IMG/VR virus record: IMGVR_UViG_3300005534_000005 | Coordinates: 1-42,970 of that record | Origin: a virus | DNA: 42,970 nucleotides | Strand: one strand, 5' to 3' | In this document: positions 1 to 42,970 of the stretch, one piece after another | Position numbering within the stretch: the first letter of the stretch is position 1 | Layout of the letters: each line of letters begins with the position of its first letter | Notes under the pieces: model-generated | Database searches by the model: none | Seen by the model: only the letters and a program-made list of their open reading frames with translations | Told to the model about the DNA's origin: nothing | Translations under genes and position numbers: made by a program

Positions 1-70
1 CATGGAGAGGGCGGCAACATGCAGAACATTAAACGTCCCGATGATGAATAGAAAGGAACAAACATGCCCA
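1..70. repeat. Terminal direct repeat, left copy
   Basis: These 70 bases are identical to bases 42901-42970. They hold the last codons and stop of the polymerase N-terminal gene (stop at 49-51), a ribosome-binding site (GAAAGGAAC) and the start of the gene at 64. Because the repeat falls inside ordinary coding sequence and joins the two ends without a break, the simplest reading is a circular or circularly permuted genome cut arbitrarily by assembly. A true short terminal repeat is not excluded. Confidence 0.9.
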
Positions 71-1198: not shown

Positions 1199-2094
1199 TG
1201 ACGATGATCGTCGGGGACGACCTCTCTCTCCATCTACCTAACGTCCGCTCCCTGTTCATCCCTGGACGGGGCCGCACCTACGTAGAAGCCGACCTAGCAC
1301 GCGCTGATGCGTGCGTAGCAGCATGGGATGCAGATGCCAAAGAACTCAAACAACAAGTCCTCGACGGAGTTGACCTCCACTCCGACAACGCACAGCTTCT
1401 GTACGGCACTCGTTGGACCGGCCGGAAGTTCGAGACGGTGCGTGAGATCGCGCCCCGTACCATGCACTCCAACGGAATGTCCTATCGCGACAATGCTAAG
1501 CGATGGGTCCATGCAACGAATTTCCACGGTGGCGCTGATACGGTGGCGTCCGTCATCGTAGTCGATAAGGAGCATGTGAAGGCGTGCCAACAGTGGTGGA
1601 CTGAGGCGCGGCATCCTGAGATCGGCCGCTGGCACCGTCGCATACAAGCGGCGCTCAACAGCCGCAAGATGCCAGTTATCCACAACGCGTTCGGGTTCCA
1701 CCGCATGTATGTGGGCGGCTCACCCTACGGCCGCAGTGACGGCAATCTACTCGGTCAAGCACTTGGATGGATATGTCAATCCACCGTCGCCATAGTCATC
1801 AATCGCGGGATTGAGAGGATCGATTGTAACCTCGACTTGATCGGCCGGCCTCGTTGTGGTGACTGCCTCGTGTGTCACGGTAGAGAGTGGGAGCTTCGCC
1901 TACAAGTCCATGACAGCATCCTAACAACCATCCCCACTCCATGCGTAGAACCCGTTCGTATGAAGGAGCTTATCTCCGCTCTAACTATCCGTGTCCCTTA
2001 CGACGATCCCCTTTACATTCCAGTCGAGATCAAGTACTCTCATGACAATTGGGGAAACATGAAGAAGTGGACTGATGACTCGGCGGCATTATGA
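1186..2094 (+). CDS. polA: Family A DNA polymerase, C-terminal part (fingers and palm)
   Basis: 302 residues holding the catalytic core missing from the protein at 41206-42951. Motif A is VEADLARAD (catalytic D36; Asp where E. coli Pol I has Glu710). Motif B starts RDNAK (R101, K105), with His109 and Phe113 where Pol I has Phe762 and Tyr766. Motif C is QVHDS (H242, D243). It opens with NVRSLFIPGRG, matching the segment just before motif A in Pol I, so no conserved block is lost between halves. A four-cysteine stretch (C214, C224, C227, C230) lies just before motif C. ATG 1186 is chosen because GGAAGG lies 8 bases upstream; ATG 1198 and 1204 are alternatives. The C-terminus ends YSHDNWG like other Pol A proteins. 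Confidence 0.93.
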   Translation: MVALMTMIVGDDLSLHLPNVRSLFIPGRGRTYVEADLARADACVAAWDADAKELKQQVLDGVDLHSDNAQLLYGTRWTGRKFETVREIAPRTMHSNGMSYRDNAKRWVHATNFHGGADTVASVIVVDKEHVKACQQWWTEARHPEIGRWHRRIQAALNSRKMPVIHNAFGFHRMYVGGSPYGRSDGNLLGQALGWICQSTVAIVINRGIERIDCNLDLIGRPRCGDCLVCHGREWELRLQVHDSILTTIPTPCVEPVRMKELISALTIRVPYDDPLYIPVEIKYSHDNWGNMKKWTDDSAAL

Positions 2095-3478
2095 AGACTT
2101 CCTCGCATCCTACGTCGAAATAATCTCTCCGAAGGGAGAAGCCCCCGCCCGCTTCCACTTCTGGACTGCTGTACATACTATCGCTGGAGCACTCCGCCGC
2201 CGAGTGTACTTCGATGCGGGTACGTTCAAGTGGTATCCGAACTTCTACATTATCCTCGTGGGGCCGCCCGGCATCGTGAAGAAATCGACAGTCATCAACA
2301 TCGGCGCGCGGCTCCTTCGCGAAGTCCCCAACGTCATCGTCGGCGCTGACTGTACGACGTGGCAACAATTCGTCCAAGAGGTCGCAGAGGCGAAGGACTT
2401 CTTCGCTGAGGGCGATCCACAGAGCCTCGATGAAGAAGCCCTCCTCAACCGCACTCACACCGTCACAAGCGCCCTCTCACTCGAAATCAGCGAACTCGGT
2501 ACGTTCCTAAACACCGATGATCGCGATATGATTAACATCCTCACCGAGCTGTGGGACTGTAAGCTAGATCAGAAGTTCGTCAAAGCGACGAAGACACAAG
2601 GCTCGGACGAGATCATGAACCCCTTCGTCAACATCATTGCCGGGACGACGCCAGCATGGATGAACGATAACTTCCGAGGCCGCATCGGTGGCTGGGGGCT
2701 GTCAAGTCGTTGCATCTTCCTTCACGCCTCGCGGCCGGATCGCCGCATCGCCCTCCCTCATCTCGAATGGAAGGGAGAGCATGACGCTATAATGGCGAAG
2801 TTCCGCGAAGACCTTATCGACATCGCGAAGCTGCAAGGTGGCTGCATACTAACGCCAGAAGCACAAGAGTTCTTCACCGCATGGTACATCGCGCACGGCG
2901 AGCGGCATGAGCGGCTAGAGAGCCACCCGCATCGCGATCCGTGGCTCTCGTACTACATGGCTCGCAAACATGACAACGTGATGAAGCTCGCAATCGTGCT
3001 CACGGCGGCCCGCCGCGACACCCTCATCATCACCCTGCAAGACGCTCAGGATGCAGTCGCTCGTTGTGATGAGATCGAAGAAGAACTCTCCCATGTCTTC
3101 CAAACGAAGGAAGCTGTAGATCGTGATGCGAAGGTCCGTACAGACGTATGGAACGGCATCTGTCGCGGCCTACGTAAGTCGCCTAGTGGCGAGCTACTCG
3201 ACTACAAGCTGCATGGCTATTGCTCGCAGTTCATGTCGGGTGGCAAGGCGAAGGAACTCATCACACAACTGATAGAGAGCCGCTACCTCTATAGACGTGG
3301 CGAGAATGGCAACGTATTCTACGGCCTCGGCGATGCGGCTGTCGTCGATGAGAGTAAGATGGGAGAGATACCTACTGTAACCCTGTCAGGGACATTGCGG
3401 CGTTCCCAATCGCCTGCCCGACCGGAGCAAGTGGCGCCGTTGCCGGTGCCGCGCGACGACCTAGAACGGCAGCGCTGA
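2075..3478 (+). CDS. DUF3987-type P-loop ATPase, putative replication helicase/primase-like protein
   Basis: 467 residues, starting inside the end of the polymerase C-terminal gene (20-base overlap). After an N-terminal HFWTAVHTIAGAL helix comes a Walker A loop, GPPGIVKKST (about residues 63-72), then an acidic LEISELG segment and an NIIAGTTPAW segment where a sensor residue is expected. This layout matches DUF3987-type ATPases of phages and plasmids, some of which sit at the helicase position of replication modules. No separate DnaB or primase gene is seen in the window, so this is the best helicase candidate, by inference. Its last 107 bases overlap the 3' end of the opposing late gene at 3372-6008. 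Confidence 0.75.
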   Translation: MTRRHYEDFLASYVEIISPKGEAPARFHFWTAVHTIAGALRRRVYFDAGTFKWYPNFYIILVGPPGIVKKSTVINIGARLLREVPNVIVGADCTTWQQFVQEVAEAKDFFAEGDPQSLDEEALLNRTHTVTSALSLEISELGTFLNTDDRDMINILTELWDCKLDQKFVKATKTQGSDEIMNPFVNIIAGTTPAWMNDNFRGRIGGWGLSSRCIFLHASRPDRRIALPHLEWKGEHDAIMAKFREDLIDIAKLQGGCILTPEAQEFFTAWYIAHGERHERLESHPHRDPWLSYYMARKHDNVMKLAIVLTAARRDTLIITLQDAQDAVARCDEIEEELSHVFQTKEAVDRDAKVRTDVWNGICRGLRKSPSGELLDYKLHGYCSQFMSGGKAKELITQLIESRYLYRRGENGNVFYGLGDAAVVDESKMGEIPTVTLSGTLRRSQSPARPEQVAPLPVPRDDLERQR

Positions 3479-7507: not shown

Positions 7508-8727
7508 TACGCGGCCTCTAGTAGATCAGCGATCACCGCTCCATAATCGACGGTCTTAACGCCACTTCGTAGTGTGCCCACGGCATGTGGCAACTTCTTC
7601 TCGACATCTTGTGCAACGAAGCCGACATGCGTCTCCGGCCGCCCCTTATACCGAAAACGATAGATACCCACACCGCTATCGAGTGAGCCGACCTTCTTCA
7701 CGTCATCCTTCACACGTTCGTCTGAGAGGAACGATAGAAGAGAGGAGCCAGCGCTTGCAAGTGAGGGGCCGAGAGCTTGTCCGAGACCCTGGTTCGATGC
7801 GAGATTGCCGAGCAGTGAAGGAATAAGGCCAGTCTGCCCAGGATTGACGATGCTGTTCGTCTGTTGCGTGGGGATGCCAGTGGCATTAATCGCCAATCCC
7901 ATCCGTTGCAACGTCTGCTGTATCTGACTGTAGAAGTCGTTGACCTGTCCCGCGACTTGCGTCTGCTGTTGCTGTTGAGGCACCGCACCGGCCGCCAACG
8001 TACCACCGAGCAAACTCTCCGTAGTAGATGCTTCCGCCCCTGGAATGGCGGAGGTCGCGGGAGCTAGGCCAAGTGCTTGCAGGATCGCACTCTGCCCAAA
8101 CTCGTTCGCACCGATGTTTAGGCCGCCCGCAGTCAGGGCGTCGGCCGCCGTGGTGGTGGCTGCCGACAGGTTCGCTCCCTGGTTTGCACTGGCCGCGCTG
8201 AACCCAAGTTGCCCGGCCTCCGTCGCGATGTTGCTTTCGAGGTCGCTGCCGGCCTGCCTACGTGCCTCCATCGCGTCCGAGGAGAACCCGCCGCCAGCGC
8301 TCGCACCGTACTTCCCTGTAATCGCCGGCAAGATGCGGTCGTTGAACGCCTTAGTCAACGGATCGACGACGCTCTGCTGAATGACTTGAGAGGGATCGAT
8401 CTGCTGCGCTTGCACCGTCGGCGCACTGACTTGGCCCGGCCCGCCGTAGTTCAATCCCTTCGACAGTGCTTGGAACGCCTGCGTGGGATCAAGCTGCGGC
8501 ATGTTCGGGATGACGTTGGAGGCGAAATGCTCTAAGCCGGCGAGGGACATATTCTGCAAGCCGCTTAGCGGCGCTGAGAACGTCCCTTGATACGGCTGCA
8601 CCCCAGGAGCGGGAGCGCCGCTCTGCATGAAGCCGGCAAGAGCGTTAAGTATGTTCTCTTGTGTGGGATTGATCGTCGGCGAAGTTGTCGTCTTGACAGA
8701 CGGAGCCGAACCAAAGAGGAAGCTCAT
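7507..8727 (-). CDS. Virion protein with C-terminal S74 intramolecular chaperone domain
   Basis: 406 residues. The first 330 are Ala/Gln/Gly/Ser-rich and helical (runs such as QQQQQTQVAGQ), typical of a small ejection protein. The last 72 residues form a peptidase S74 domain: LSDERVKDDVKKVG (Ser335-Asp336, the expected self-cleavage dyad), then YRFRYKG, HVGFVAQDVEKKLPHAV and TVDYGAVIADLLEA. Family knowledge: S74 domains help trimeric fibres fold and then cut themselves off just before the serine. Here it is fused to a protein that looks internal, not a fibre. ATG with GAAGGAA upstream, 4 bases after the acetyltransferase stop. Confidence 0.8.
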   Translation of the reverse strand: MSFLFGSAPSVKTTTSPTINPTQENILNALAGFMQSGAPAPGVQPYQGTFSAPLSGLQNMSLAGLEHFASNVIPNMPQLDPTQAFQALSKGLNYGGPGQVSAPTVQAQQIDPSQVIQQSVVDPLTKAFNDRILPAITGKYGASAGGGFSSDAMEARRQAGSDLESNIATEAGQLGFSAASANQGANLSAATTTAADALTAGGLNIGANEFGQSAILQALGLAPATSAIPGAEASTTESLLGGTLAAGAVPQQQQQTQVAGQVNDFYSQIQQTLQRMGLAINATGIPTQQTNSIVNPGQTGLIPSLLGNLASNQGLGQALGPSLASAGSSLLSFLSDERVKDDVKKVGSLDSGVGIYRFRYKGRPETHVGFVAQDVEKKLPHAVGTLRSGVKTVDYGAVIADLLEAA

Positions 8728-40892: not shown

Positions 40893-41209
40893 AGTTCTCA
40901 CACTCCCTCGTCGCCGATCCGCGCGAGGTACGAGCCGCGCTACCCGAGCTAGAGAGTATCCATCGTGAGCTGTACTATCACTCGACGTATGGTGCTAATC
41001 GTGGGCGCACCTTCGTCCCACTCTACCAGCGGCCGGAAGCTGTTCGCTGCGCCGTCGAAGGATGCGAAGCACCCTTCCCGTACTTCAACATCGAAGCGAC
41101 ACGAAGCAGCTACAACTGGCGTTGTCTCACCCACATCCCTCCCGACATCACTTTCCCTATCGGAATGAACTCGGAGGAGTGGATCGCGTCGGGAAGGAAG
41201 AAGGCATGA
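40658..41209 (+). CDS. Hypothetical protein with acidic N-terminus overlapping the basic gene
   Basis: 183 residues, GGAGAG 8 bases before the ATG. The first 65 residues are acidic and low-complexity (SEEEASTPIGGGTTQAQSGE), encoded in the same DNA as the basic tail of the previous gene. From about residue 66 it looks like a folded domain: ALCAAVRRLIEFSHSLV, LESIHRELYYHSTYG, AVRCAVEGCEAPFPYF (a Cys pair) and a C-terminal TFPIGMNSEEWIAS. Overlaps the polymerase gene by ATGA. Function unknown. Confidence 0.65.
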   Translation: MGKYEQSEEEASTPIGGGTTQAQSGEEPKVEGEATSAVASGEGPTEQIPTRPAPQTAEGSADLVDGQDALCAAVRRLIEFSHSLVADPREVRAALPELESIHRELYYHSTYGANRGRTFVPLYQRPEAVRCAVEGCEAPFPYFNIEATRSSYNWRCLTHIPPDITFPIGMNSEEWIASGRKKA

Positions 41210-42951
41210 GCCGCATCCTCACAGACGGCGATCCATCCTCCCGCATTTGGATTGTGGGAGAAGCGCCCGGTCGGAATGAAGTAGAACAAGGCCGCCCGTT
41301 CGTCGGGGCGAGCGGTATCGAACTCGACAAGATGCTCCGCGAGGCCGGCCTACTTCGCGCCCAATGTTTCCTCACGAACGTCTGTCACGAACGTCCTCCT
41401 TCCATCATGAAGAACGGGAAGGTCATCAATGACAACATCGAACAGTGGTTCCTAGGCGTCACTGCTGCACGTGCAACTAACACTCCTCTTATCAGCGGCC
41501 GCTTTCCAGCTGAGCCTATTAGAGACGGAGTGTCAATCCTCCGCGACTTACTCTTGCGGCACAAACCTACCTTGGTCATCGCACTCGGTAACACTGCCTT
41601 GTGGGCGCTCAGTAGCCATACAGGTATCACTAAGTGGCGAGGATCCGTCTTCGATACCTCGGAAGCGCGGGACGCGGGGCCGGCAGCTACGGGTGGTAAA
41701 GTAATCGCTACATTCCATCCGGCCGATGTTCTACGGCAGTGGACCCACCGGCCCATCGTCGTACAAGACCTCCGCCGCGCCGTCCGCGAAAGCACGTCTC
41801 CCAACGTCCACAAGACGACATGGAACTTCACAATACCTCGTACGGTAGCGGACGTTCGCGCGTGGCTCGGTGACTATGGTGCGTTCGCGGGAGGCAAGCA
41901 ACTCATCGCTGACACTGAGGGCTGGGGCCGCGTCGATTGTATCGGATTTGCAGCCTCGGCCGAAGAAGCTATCTGCATTCCCTTCGTCCATGAGACGAAC
42001 ATCGCGGCCGACCTCTCTAACCTCCATTATTGGACGGAGGAAGACGAGTTCGACATCCTCCAATTCCTCCGTCAAGTCCTCACTACGAACGACATCACGT
42101 TCCACAACGCTCTCTGGGACACACAGGTGATCCTACGCTCGTGGGGCTTCCTACCGCGCCTTGGTGACGATACACAAGTCATGCAACACGTCGCGTTCCC
42201 CGGCCTGATCGGCGGCAAGATCGATCCCGTCACAGGCGAAGTCGCGAAGACCGGCTCCTCCCTCTCCCTCTCCTTCATCGCCTCTATGTATTGCTCTTAC
42301 TACCGCTACTGGAAGGACGATGGCCGCCACTTCGATCCCTCCATTGGTGACGAGATCGACTACTGGCGGTACAACTGCGAAGATTGCGTCCGTACGTATG
42401 AGTGCCGCGATAGCCTTCGTGCGACCTTAGAGCGATACAATCTTCAAGCTCAGTATGAAATGAAGATGCGGGAGTTTGGGCCGGTCCTCGCGATGATGCT
42501 GCGCGGTCTTCCATACGACGTGGAGCGTGCGAAGCGGTATCGCGCGGAGGTCGATAAGACGAAGCACGGTGTCCGCGAATGGCTCTCCCACGTCACAGAG
42601 ACAGACTTCAATCCGTGGAGCGCGCCGCAATGCAAGGCGCTGTTCTACGATGACCTCTGTCTACCGAAGATGCTCAACCGTCACACTAAGGCACCTACGC
42701 TCGACGATGCGGCTCTCGAAACAATCGGCCGCAAGAACCCGATCCTCCGGCCGCTCGTCCAGCAAATCCAGAACTTCCGCACGCTCGACACGGTGAAGGA
42801 CGACATGGACCCCGCGCTCCCCGGCCCTGATGGTATCGTCCGCTTCGCCCTTAACGTCGCGTTTGTGGAAACGATGCGCTTCTCCTGCAACTCTACAGCA
42901 CATGGAGAGGGCGGCAACATGCAGAACATTAAACGTCCCGATGATGAATAG
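41206..42951 (+). CDS. polA: Family A DNA polymerase, N-terminal part: UDG-like domain, DEDDy exonuclease and thumb
   Basis: 581 residues from ATG 41206 (ATGA junction, AAGGAAGAAGG upstream). Residues about 10-190: UDG-like domain (GEAPGRNEVEQGRPFVG; TNVCHERPP; FHPADVLR) like family 4, but without the four-cysteine iron-sulfur set. Residues about 230-400: proofreading exonuclease with ADTEG (D236, E238), HNALWDTQ (D305) and Y389/D393 (DEDDy). Residues 400-581: thumb and start of the palm, ending MRFSCNSTA and GGNMQNIKRPDDE, the GRxSS/NLQNIP-like block. A stop follows; motifs A, B and C are in the gene at 1186-2094. By itself this part cannot polymerise. Confidence 0.92.
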   Translation: MSRILTDGDPSSRIWIVGEAPGRNEVEQGRPFVGASGIELDKMLREAGLLRAQCFLTNVCHERPPSIMKNGKVINDNIEQWFLGVTAARATNTPLISGRFPAEPIRDGVSILRDLLLRHKPTLVIALGNTALWALSSHTGITKWRGSVFDTSEARDAGPAATGGKVIATFHPADVLRQWTHRPIVVQDLRRAVRESTSPNVHKTTWNFTIPRTVADVRAWLGDYGAFAGGKQLIADTEGWGRVDCIGFAASAEEAICIPFVHETNIAADLSNLHYWTEEDEFDILQFLRQVLTTNDITFHNALWDTQVILRSWGFLPRLGDDTQVMQHVAFPGLIGGKIDPVTGEVAKTGSSLSLSFIASMYCSYYRYWKDDGRHFDPSIGDEIDYWRYNCEDCVRTYECRDSLRATLERYNLQAQYEMKMREFGPVLAMMLRGLPYDVERAKRYRAEVDKTKHGVREWLSHVTETDFNPWSAPQCKALFYDDLCLPKMLNRHTKAPTLDDAALETIGRKNPILRPLVQQIQNFRTLDTVKDDMDPALPGPDGIVRFALNVAFVETMRFSCNSTAHGEGGNMQNIKRPDDE

Positions 42952-42970
42952 AAAGGAACAAACATGCCCA
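42901..42970. repeat. Terminal direct repeat, right copy
   Basis: Identical to bases 1-70. The polymerase N-terminal gene's stop (42949-42951) and the next gene's start (42964) lie in it, so both ends share the same junction. Confidence 0.9.

Follow-up and report, generated by a model that had tools for sequence, protein, structure and literature searches.

Replicative DNA polymerases divided between two genes have been described in T4-like phages, as a preliminary description of the DNA analysed here had noted. In Aeromonas phages 25 and 44RR the polymerase is encoded by two cistrons, 43A and 43B, with a mobile element or untranslated sequence between them, and the split proteins of phage 25 co-purify and are active (review PMC2988022). 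These enzymes have the family B fold, occur in few phages and are not described there as recurrently split at one linker. Here we report a comparable arrangement in family A, in the IMG/VR virus record IMGVR_UViG_3300005534_000005, which was analysed over its whole length of 42,970 nucleotides (hereafter the window). Two of its genes, an N-terminal half at 41206-42951 and a C-terminal half at 1186-2094, both on the plus strand, very probably encode the two chains of one replicative family A DNA polymerase, assembled non-covalently across the palm, with the assembly and the activity being what we infer.

A family A polymerase in two genes has a published precedent in another lineage. The OM43 phages MEP401 and MEP402 (Zobellviridae; OP830906, PMC10580990) likewise carry the enzyme in two genes, with a single open reading frame (ORF) of 77 amino acids between them, and in MEP401 the break also falls between the NLQN block and motif A, the N-terminal half ending with PNLQNFDGEIKTLFLSRYGE and a stop codon and the C-terminal half starting with MILNADAKALEW. 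These phages differ in that their polymerase belongs to another lineage, lacks a uracil-DNA glycosylase (UDG) domain and breaks slightly further downstream, past the IKTLF segment; the authors observed the split solely within their own group, where most members have it (PMC10580990). In Pseudomonas phage PaP3 (AY078382) a family A polymerase is annotated as two genes, ‘DNA polymerase 1/2’, with several genes between them. Judged from gene lengths and annotation only, that break is apparently at the exonuclease/polymerase border, which would leave the active site in one chain. A like arrangement is found in a cultured Vibrio phage, VS-ABTNL-3, in which PVS_29 and PVS_27 (MF497422) have the same domains, the same break and the same downstream primase-like gene as the window, but one unrelated 184-amino-acid ORF between the halves and about 27-29% identity; the annotation of the record is silent on the split. 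Direct homologues with the same domain order, UDG-exonuclease-PolA, are unsplit in Microcystis phage Mel-JY34 (PP438425) and in ctMlz233 (MW202489), where a single chain has a variable linker at the place where the window breaks. In the open PubMed Central (PMC) literature we found no report of a recurrent break in the UDG-exonuclease-PolA lineage; on split family A polymerases it gave MEP401 only, with no mention of VS-ABTNL-3. The split family A polymerase itself is therefore already known, and what is new here is its recurrence at one linker.

The two halves of the polymerase

The first 70 bases of the window (1-70, no strand assigned) are identical to its last 70 (42901-42970). The record is therefore circular, and genes at the start and the end of the window adjoin. 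The preliminary description had noted other genes between the two halves; read around the circle, the halves belong to one operon and are separated by no more than about 1.2 kb.

The N-terminal half has 581 amino acids and comprises a UDG domain (residues 7-182), a 3'-5' exonuclease, the thumb and the first part of the palm. Pfam identifies the UDG domain at 2.7e-24, and a profile of the N-terminal half also matches family-4 UDGs (TM0511 at 4e-29); the GEAPG and FHPAD motifs, together with sequence and fold similarity, place the domain in family 4. The exonuclease has the DxE, NxxxD and YxxxD motifs of DEDD proofreading enzymes, its catalytic positions (41911-42384, plus strand) being D236/E238 in Exo I, N301/D305 in Exo II and Y389/N390/D393 in Exo III, all invariant in 53 relatives (alignment A3). 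Also invariant in these 53 is R558 (42877-42879, plus strand), the counterpart of E. coli Pol I R668, which contacts the primer terminus. As had been noticed from the sequence, the protein ends after the block from R558 to NMQNIK, with ETMRFSCNSTAHGEGGNMQNIKRPDDE and a stop codon. This TAG (42949-42951, plus strand) has a copy at 48-50 in the terminal repeat and is very likely genuine because a cultured phage and dozens of independent contigs likewise have N-terminal halves that end at these residues. An AlphaFold2 model of the N-terminal half alone has a predicted local distance difference test (pLDDT) score of 90.4, and Foldseek matches it in the PDB to phiLo PolA, Pol I-type polymerases and UDGs. 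The best of these by E-value is phiLo PolA (PDB 9QHS), itself a single chain, with a loose superposition (TMq 0.28).

The C-terminal half has 302 amino acids and comprises the rest of the palm and the fingers. It begins, as had also been seen, just before motif A, with HLPNVRSLFIPGRGRTYVEADL. Its motifs A, B and C, with the catalytic aspartates and the motif B lysine, assign it to family A: D36 (1291-1293; E. coli D705), K105 (1498-1500; E. coli K758) and His242-Asp243 (1909-1914; E. coli H881-D882), all on the plus strand, are invariant in 61 relatives. The profile of this half (A4) matches Taq and Klenow polymerases at 2.5e-28 to 6e-26, and its AlphaFold2 model (pLDDT 89.3, again the half alone) is matched by Foldseek to Pol I, KlenTaq and Pol theta, so that each half resembles Pol I-type structures as a separate chain. 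The residue after His242-Asp243 is Ser rather than Glu, nearly invariantly in the family. At the position of E. coli F762 there is a histidine, H109 (1510-1512), that is invariant in the family (alignment A4); the virioplankton literature sorts phage PolA by Phe, Tyr or Leu at position 762 (PMC6302109). Just before motif C, at about 1850-1882, the window and its closest relatives share a cysteine-rich insert (RCGDCLVC), modelled with low confidence, which is possibly a metal site.

The two halves are complementary. On one Klenow chain (1D9D_A) the profile of the N-terminal half aligns to residues 14-360 (E. coli Pol I about 337-683) and that of the C-terminal half to 366-596 (about 689-919), with five residues between them, and an unsplit relative aligns to Klenow continuously. 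The two genes thus jointly cover one polymerase and no conserved block is lost, as the preliminary description had proposed. A scan of further window proteins, not all small ORFs among them, recognised no second polymerase, so the phage would otherwise be without one. A two-chain polymerase is the simplest account. Chain 1 would supply the UDG, the proofreading exonuclease, the thumb, the first palm strands and the primer-contacting arginine, and chain 2 the O-helix (motif B) together with the catalytic aspartates that belong to motifs A and C, so that a polymerase site would exist only in the two-chain complex. Such assembly is feasible because 43A and 43B of Aeromonas phage 25 co-purify and are active.

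The best-surviving alternative, which we nevertheless consider improbable, is that the halves stay separate and have independent functions, the N-terminal half as a UDG-exonuclease and the C-terminal half as something else, while a host polymerase replicates the phage. The UDG and exonuclease domains are complete and could act alone. However, the N-terminal half retains the thumb and the palm motif with the conserved R558 and NxQN, useless without the rest, motifs A, B and C are all retained in the C-terminal half, and the proteins scanned include no other recognisable polymerase. Moreover, in split loci in which both genes were found (the loci having been chosen for at least one half) they occur together and in order.

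Recurrence of the break

Searching IMG/VR with both proteins and with profiles built from them, and adding the phage records, we obtained 146 distinct loci in which both parts are present. The preliminary description had advised looking for the same break in related genomes, and it was found in 62 of these loci, that of VS-ABTNL-3 among them, the other 84 having a single frame; since loci were picked by conserved motifs, at most 80 per scan, 62/146 is not an unbiased frequency. In nearly all split loci the N-terminal half stops at NLQN..KG(D/E)E or a few residues from it, typically with NLQN[I/L]..KG[D/E]E and a stop codon, and the C-terminal halves start a few residues before LPNxR. In unsplit relatives the corresponding linker is hypervariable, with 8-54 residues, mostly 10-27. 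A scan of bacterial and archaeal genome contigs added, in contigs of metagenome-assembled genomes (MAGs), two split loci (L190, L191), one unsplit (L189) and one partial, distant and unsplit (L192). The VS-ABTNL-3 C-terminal half alone, used as a scan query, gave no matches. An assembly or sequencing error at the contig end can be rejected, as the same break is found in dozens of independent contigs, in a cultured phage and in MAG contigs.

The gene is broken 71 times in our census, 62 times in the linker and nine times elsewhere. A second, rarer recurrent break cuts the exonuclease domain itself, separating the YWKDD block from Exo III at profile position ~339-352 (L004, L049, L173, L176, L178, L179), and L008 (ctLwi270) breaks at ~381-391, past the exonuclease domain. 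Two different contigs, L041 and L042, have the same frame relation, in which the N frame continues beyond the C-frame start (~7628-7716). This arrangement might reflect programmed frameshifting or else a split with overlapping frames; because of it the two loci, counted among the 62, were excluded from the trees.

Split and unsplit forms interleave on the phylogenetic tree. With FastTree, 114 loci require at least 13 changes between the two states, eight of them forced by well-supported branches; in an IQ-TREE subset of 58 loci there are 11 changes, seven of them forced. A single clade of all split forms is rejected by the approximately unbiased (AU) test on a 36-row subset (p-AU 7e-60), which rules out a single origin of the split. 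The trees are unrooted, and fission and re-fusion are not distinguishable on them. The preliminary description had considered a family A split at this point unusual; within this group it is not rare, the same linker break recurring in several lineages. If the halves assemble, many phages would form the active site of their replicative polymerase from two chains, at a joint reused in separate lineages. This would show how an enzyme that is essential can be divided and lose nothing by it, and would indicate where Pol I-type enzymes might naturally be split, for example for switchable or hot-start polymerases.

Junctions and selection

The halves abut in about a dozen loci, several of them (L022, L033, L053, L136, L159, L182) with an ATGA-type stop/start overlap, and 47 loci have at least 100 bp between the halves. 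The K-G-D/E-E codons before the junction, for example AAGGGAGACGAGGAATGA, can double as a Shine-Dalgarno sequence. Split termini bind the anti-Shine-Dalgarno sequence more strongly than the gene average (-7.7 versus -3.9 kcal/mol) and more strongly than synonymous recodings of themselves (-7.3 versus -5.8). The linker of unsplit genes is purine-rich too (-6.3 versus -4.2), but no more so than its amino-acid sequence dictates.

These junctions bear on two further alternatives. Programmed frameshifting, readthrough or re-initiation might fuse the halves where stop and start overlap, and the overlapping frames in about a dozen loci, as well as the extended N frame of L041 and L042, would fit such a mechanism. 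It is, however, very unlikely to account for the split, because the window and the 47 loci with longer spacers leave no possibility of fusion, and ATGA overlaps are typical of translational coupling. Less likely still is that an intron, an intein or a trans-spliced split intein restores one full-length polymerase after splicing. Introns are common in phage polymerase genes, the MEP401 authors considered a possible intron for their split polymerase (PMC10580990), and three gaps contain HNH genes. Nevertheless, neither the window nor any of 22 further loci (21 with this split, plus MEP401) matches an intron in Rfam, the further loci yielding one tRNA only, and inspection by eye showed no intein blocks at the termini of the two halves. 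The halves have separate starts, in the window each with a plausible Shine-Dalgarno sequence of its own, gap contents are mostly unrelated between groups, and the stop/start overlaps of L022, L033, L053, L159 and others leave no space for an intron. On the Rfam result for these loci and the direct junctions in relatives, we reject a self-splicing intron at the break.

Both halves are under purifying selection. The ratio of nonsynonymous to synonymous substitution rates (dN/dS) is 0.06-0.2 in each where dS is unsaturated, and unsplit pairs are similar. N- and C-terminal distances correlate across 44 split loci (r 0.38, with 0 of 1000 permutations as high). The decay of a gene commonly begins with a stop codon that breaks it, but pseudogenization after a nonsense mutation is highly improbable here, given this low dN/dS on both sides of the break, the concentration of 62 of the 71 breaks at one linker, and the fact that many diverged lineages have intact catalytic residues as well as new start codons. 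The earlier suggestion that the halves could rejoin as a heterodimer is supported by confident single folds, complementary Pol I profile matches and purifying selection on both.

Several observations weigh against the two-chain polymerase. Pfam gives the N-terminal half no polymerase match and the C-terminal half a DNA_pol_A match of 3.8e-5, below the curated cut-off; neither half passes that cut-off, and homology searches can miss such polymerases. The Foldseek TM-scores are at most about 0.49 for the whole N-terminal half (0.28 for the top match) and moderate, about 0.62-0.73, for the C-terminal half, and the structure predictions cover single chains, not the two-chain complex. The dN/dS values are rough, dS being saturated in many pairs, and the correlation between the halves is modest and also expected from plain co-inheritance. 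Unsplit genes have no synonymous bias toward a Shine-Dalgarno sequence, which makes that part of the route suggestive only.

How the two-chain polymerase may have arisen can be outlined as follows. The break falls in a length-variable loop, which relatives tolerate as a linker of 8-54 residues. We infer, as the likely route, that a stop combined with a restart (ATGA) appears in the linker, where the K-G-D/E-E codons would act as a purine stretch of Shine-Dalgarno type. Two cistrons coupled in translation would result immediately, and other genes may afterwards enter at the junction. More broadly, we speculate, as an idea that is doubtful at present, that in a large phage lineage the polymerase is an evolutionarily switchable one-chain or two-chain enzyme, which breaks and perhaps re-fuses repeatedly at the palm hinge since the hinge codons double as a ribosome-binding site, that the hinge then becomes a landing site for cargo, and that the gap exonuclease in the window's clade may be a third subunit.

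Genes between and beside the halves

In the near-identical pair L159 and L177 both members are split, with an HNH gene lying in the gap of L177 alone, and the gap is 24 bp in L136 versus 212 bp in its close relative L066. Because of these differences in gap content and length, the data suggest that the split came first and the cargo later, at least in these two pairs. The cargo includes a DnaQ-type exonuclease (in the window's clade), dUTPase, ThyX, ribonucleotide reductase, HNH, methyltransferase, Mom-like, Lon-like and SNase proteins, and others. One invading element as the cause of the split is rejected, as gap contents vary between groups and some gaps are empty. Also among the cargo is an Acb1-type protein directed against the cyclic oligonucleotide-based antiphage signalling system (anti-CBASS; Pfam PF23474, 1.7e-17), found in one member of insert set A5.

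In the window the operon order is N-terminal half, ORF 64-399, ORF 403-594, exonuclease 596-1198, C-terminal half and a primase-like gene at 2075-3478, all on the plus strand. Neighbouring genes overlap or lie a few bases apart, and they begin downstream of purine-rich, Shine-Dalgarno-like stretches, as read from the window letters. The first intervening ORF (111 amino acids) has no known domain; by loose clustering, seven other loci have a homologue of it in the corresponding gap. The second (63 amino acids) loosely matches small ORFs in four other gaps. The gene directly downstream of the C-terminal half is primase/helicase-like (DUF3987; Pfam 2.8e-12, phrog_14296 DNA primase 8e-64) and stays adjacent to the polymerase in relatives. 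The third intervening gene encodes a DnaQ/RNase_T-type exonuclease (Pfam RNase_T 1.9e-11; phrog_192 ‘DNA polymerase exonuclease subunit’ 2.7e-32) that is kept in the gap of 12 loci, the window and 11 relatives. These 12 loci thus have a second, DnaQ-type exonuclease between the halves although the exonuclease domain of the N-terminal half is itself intact.
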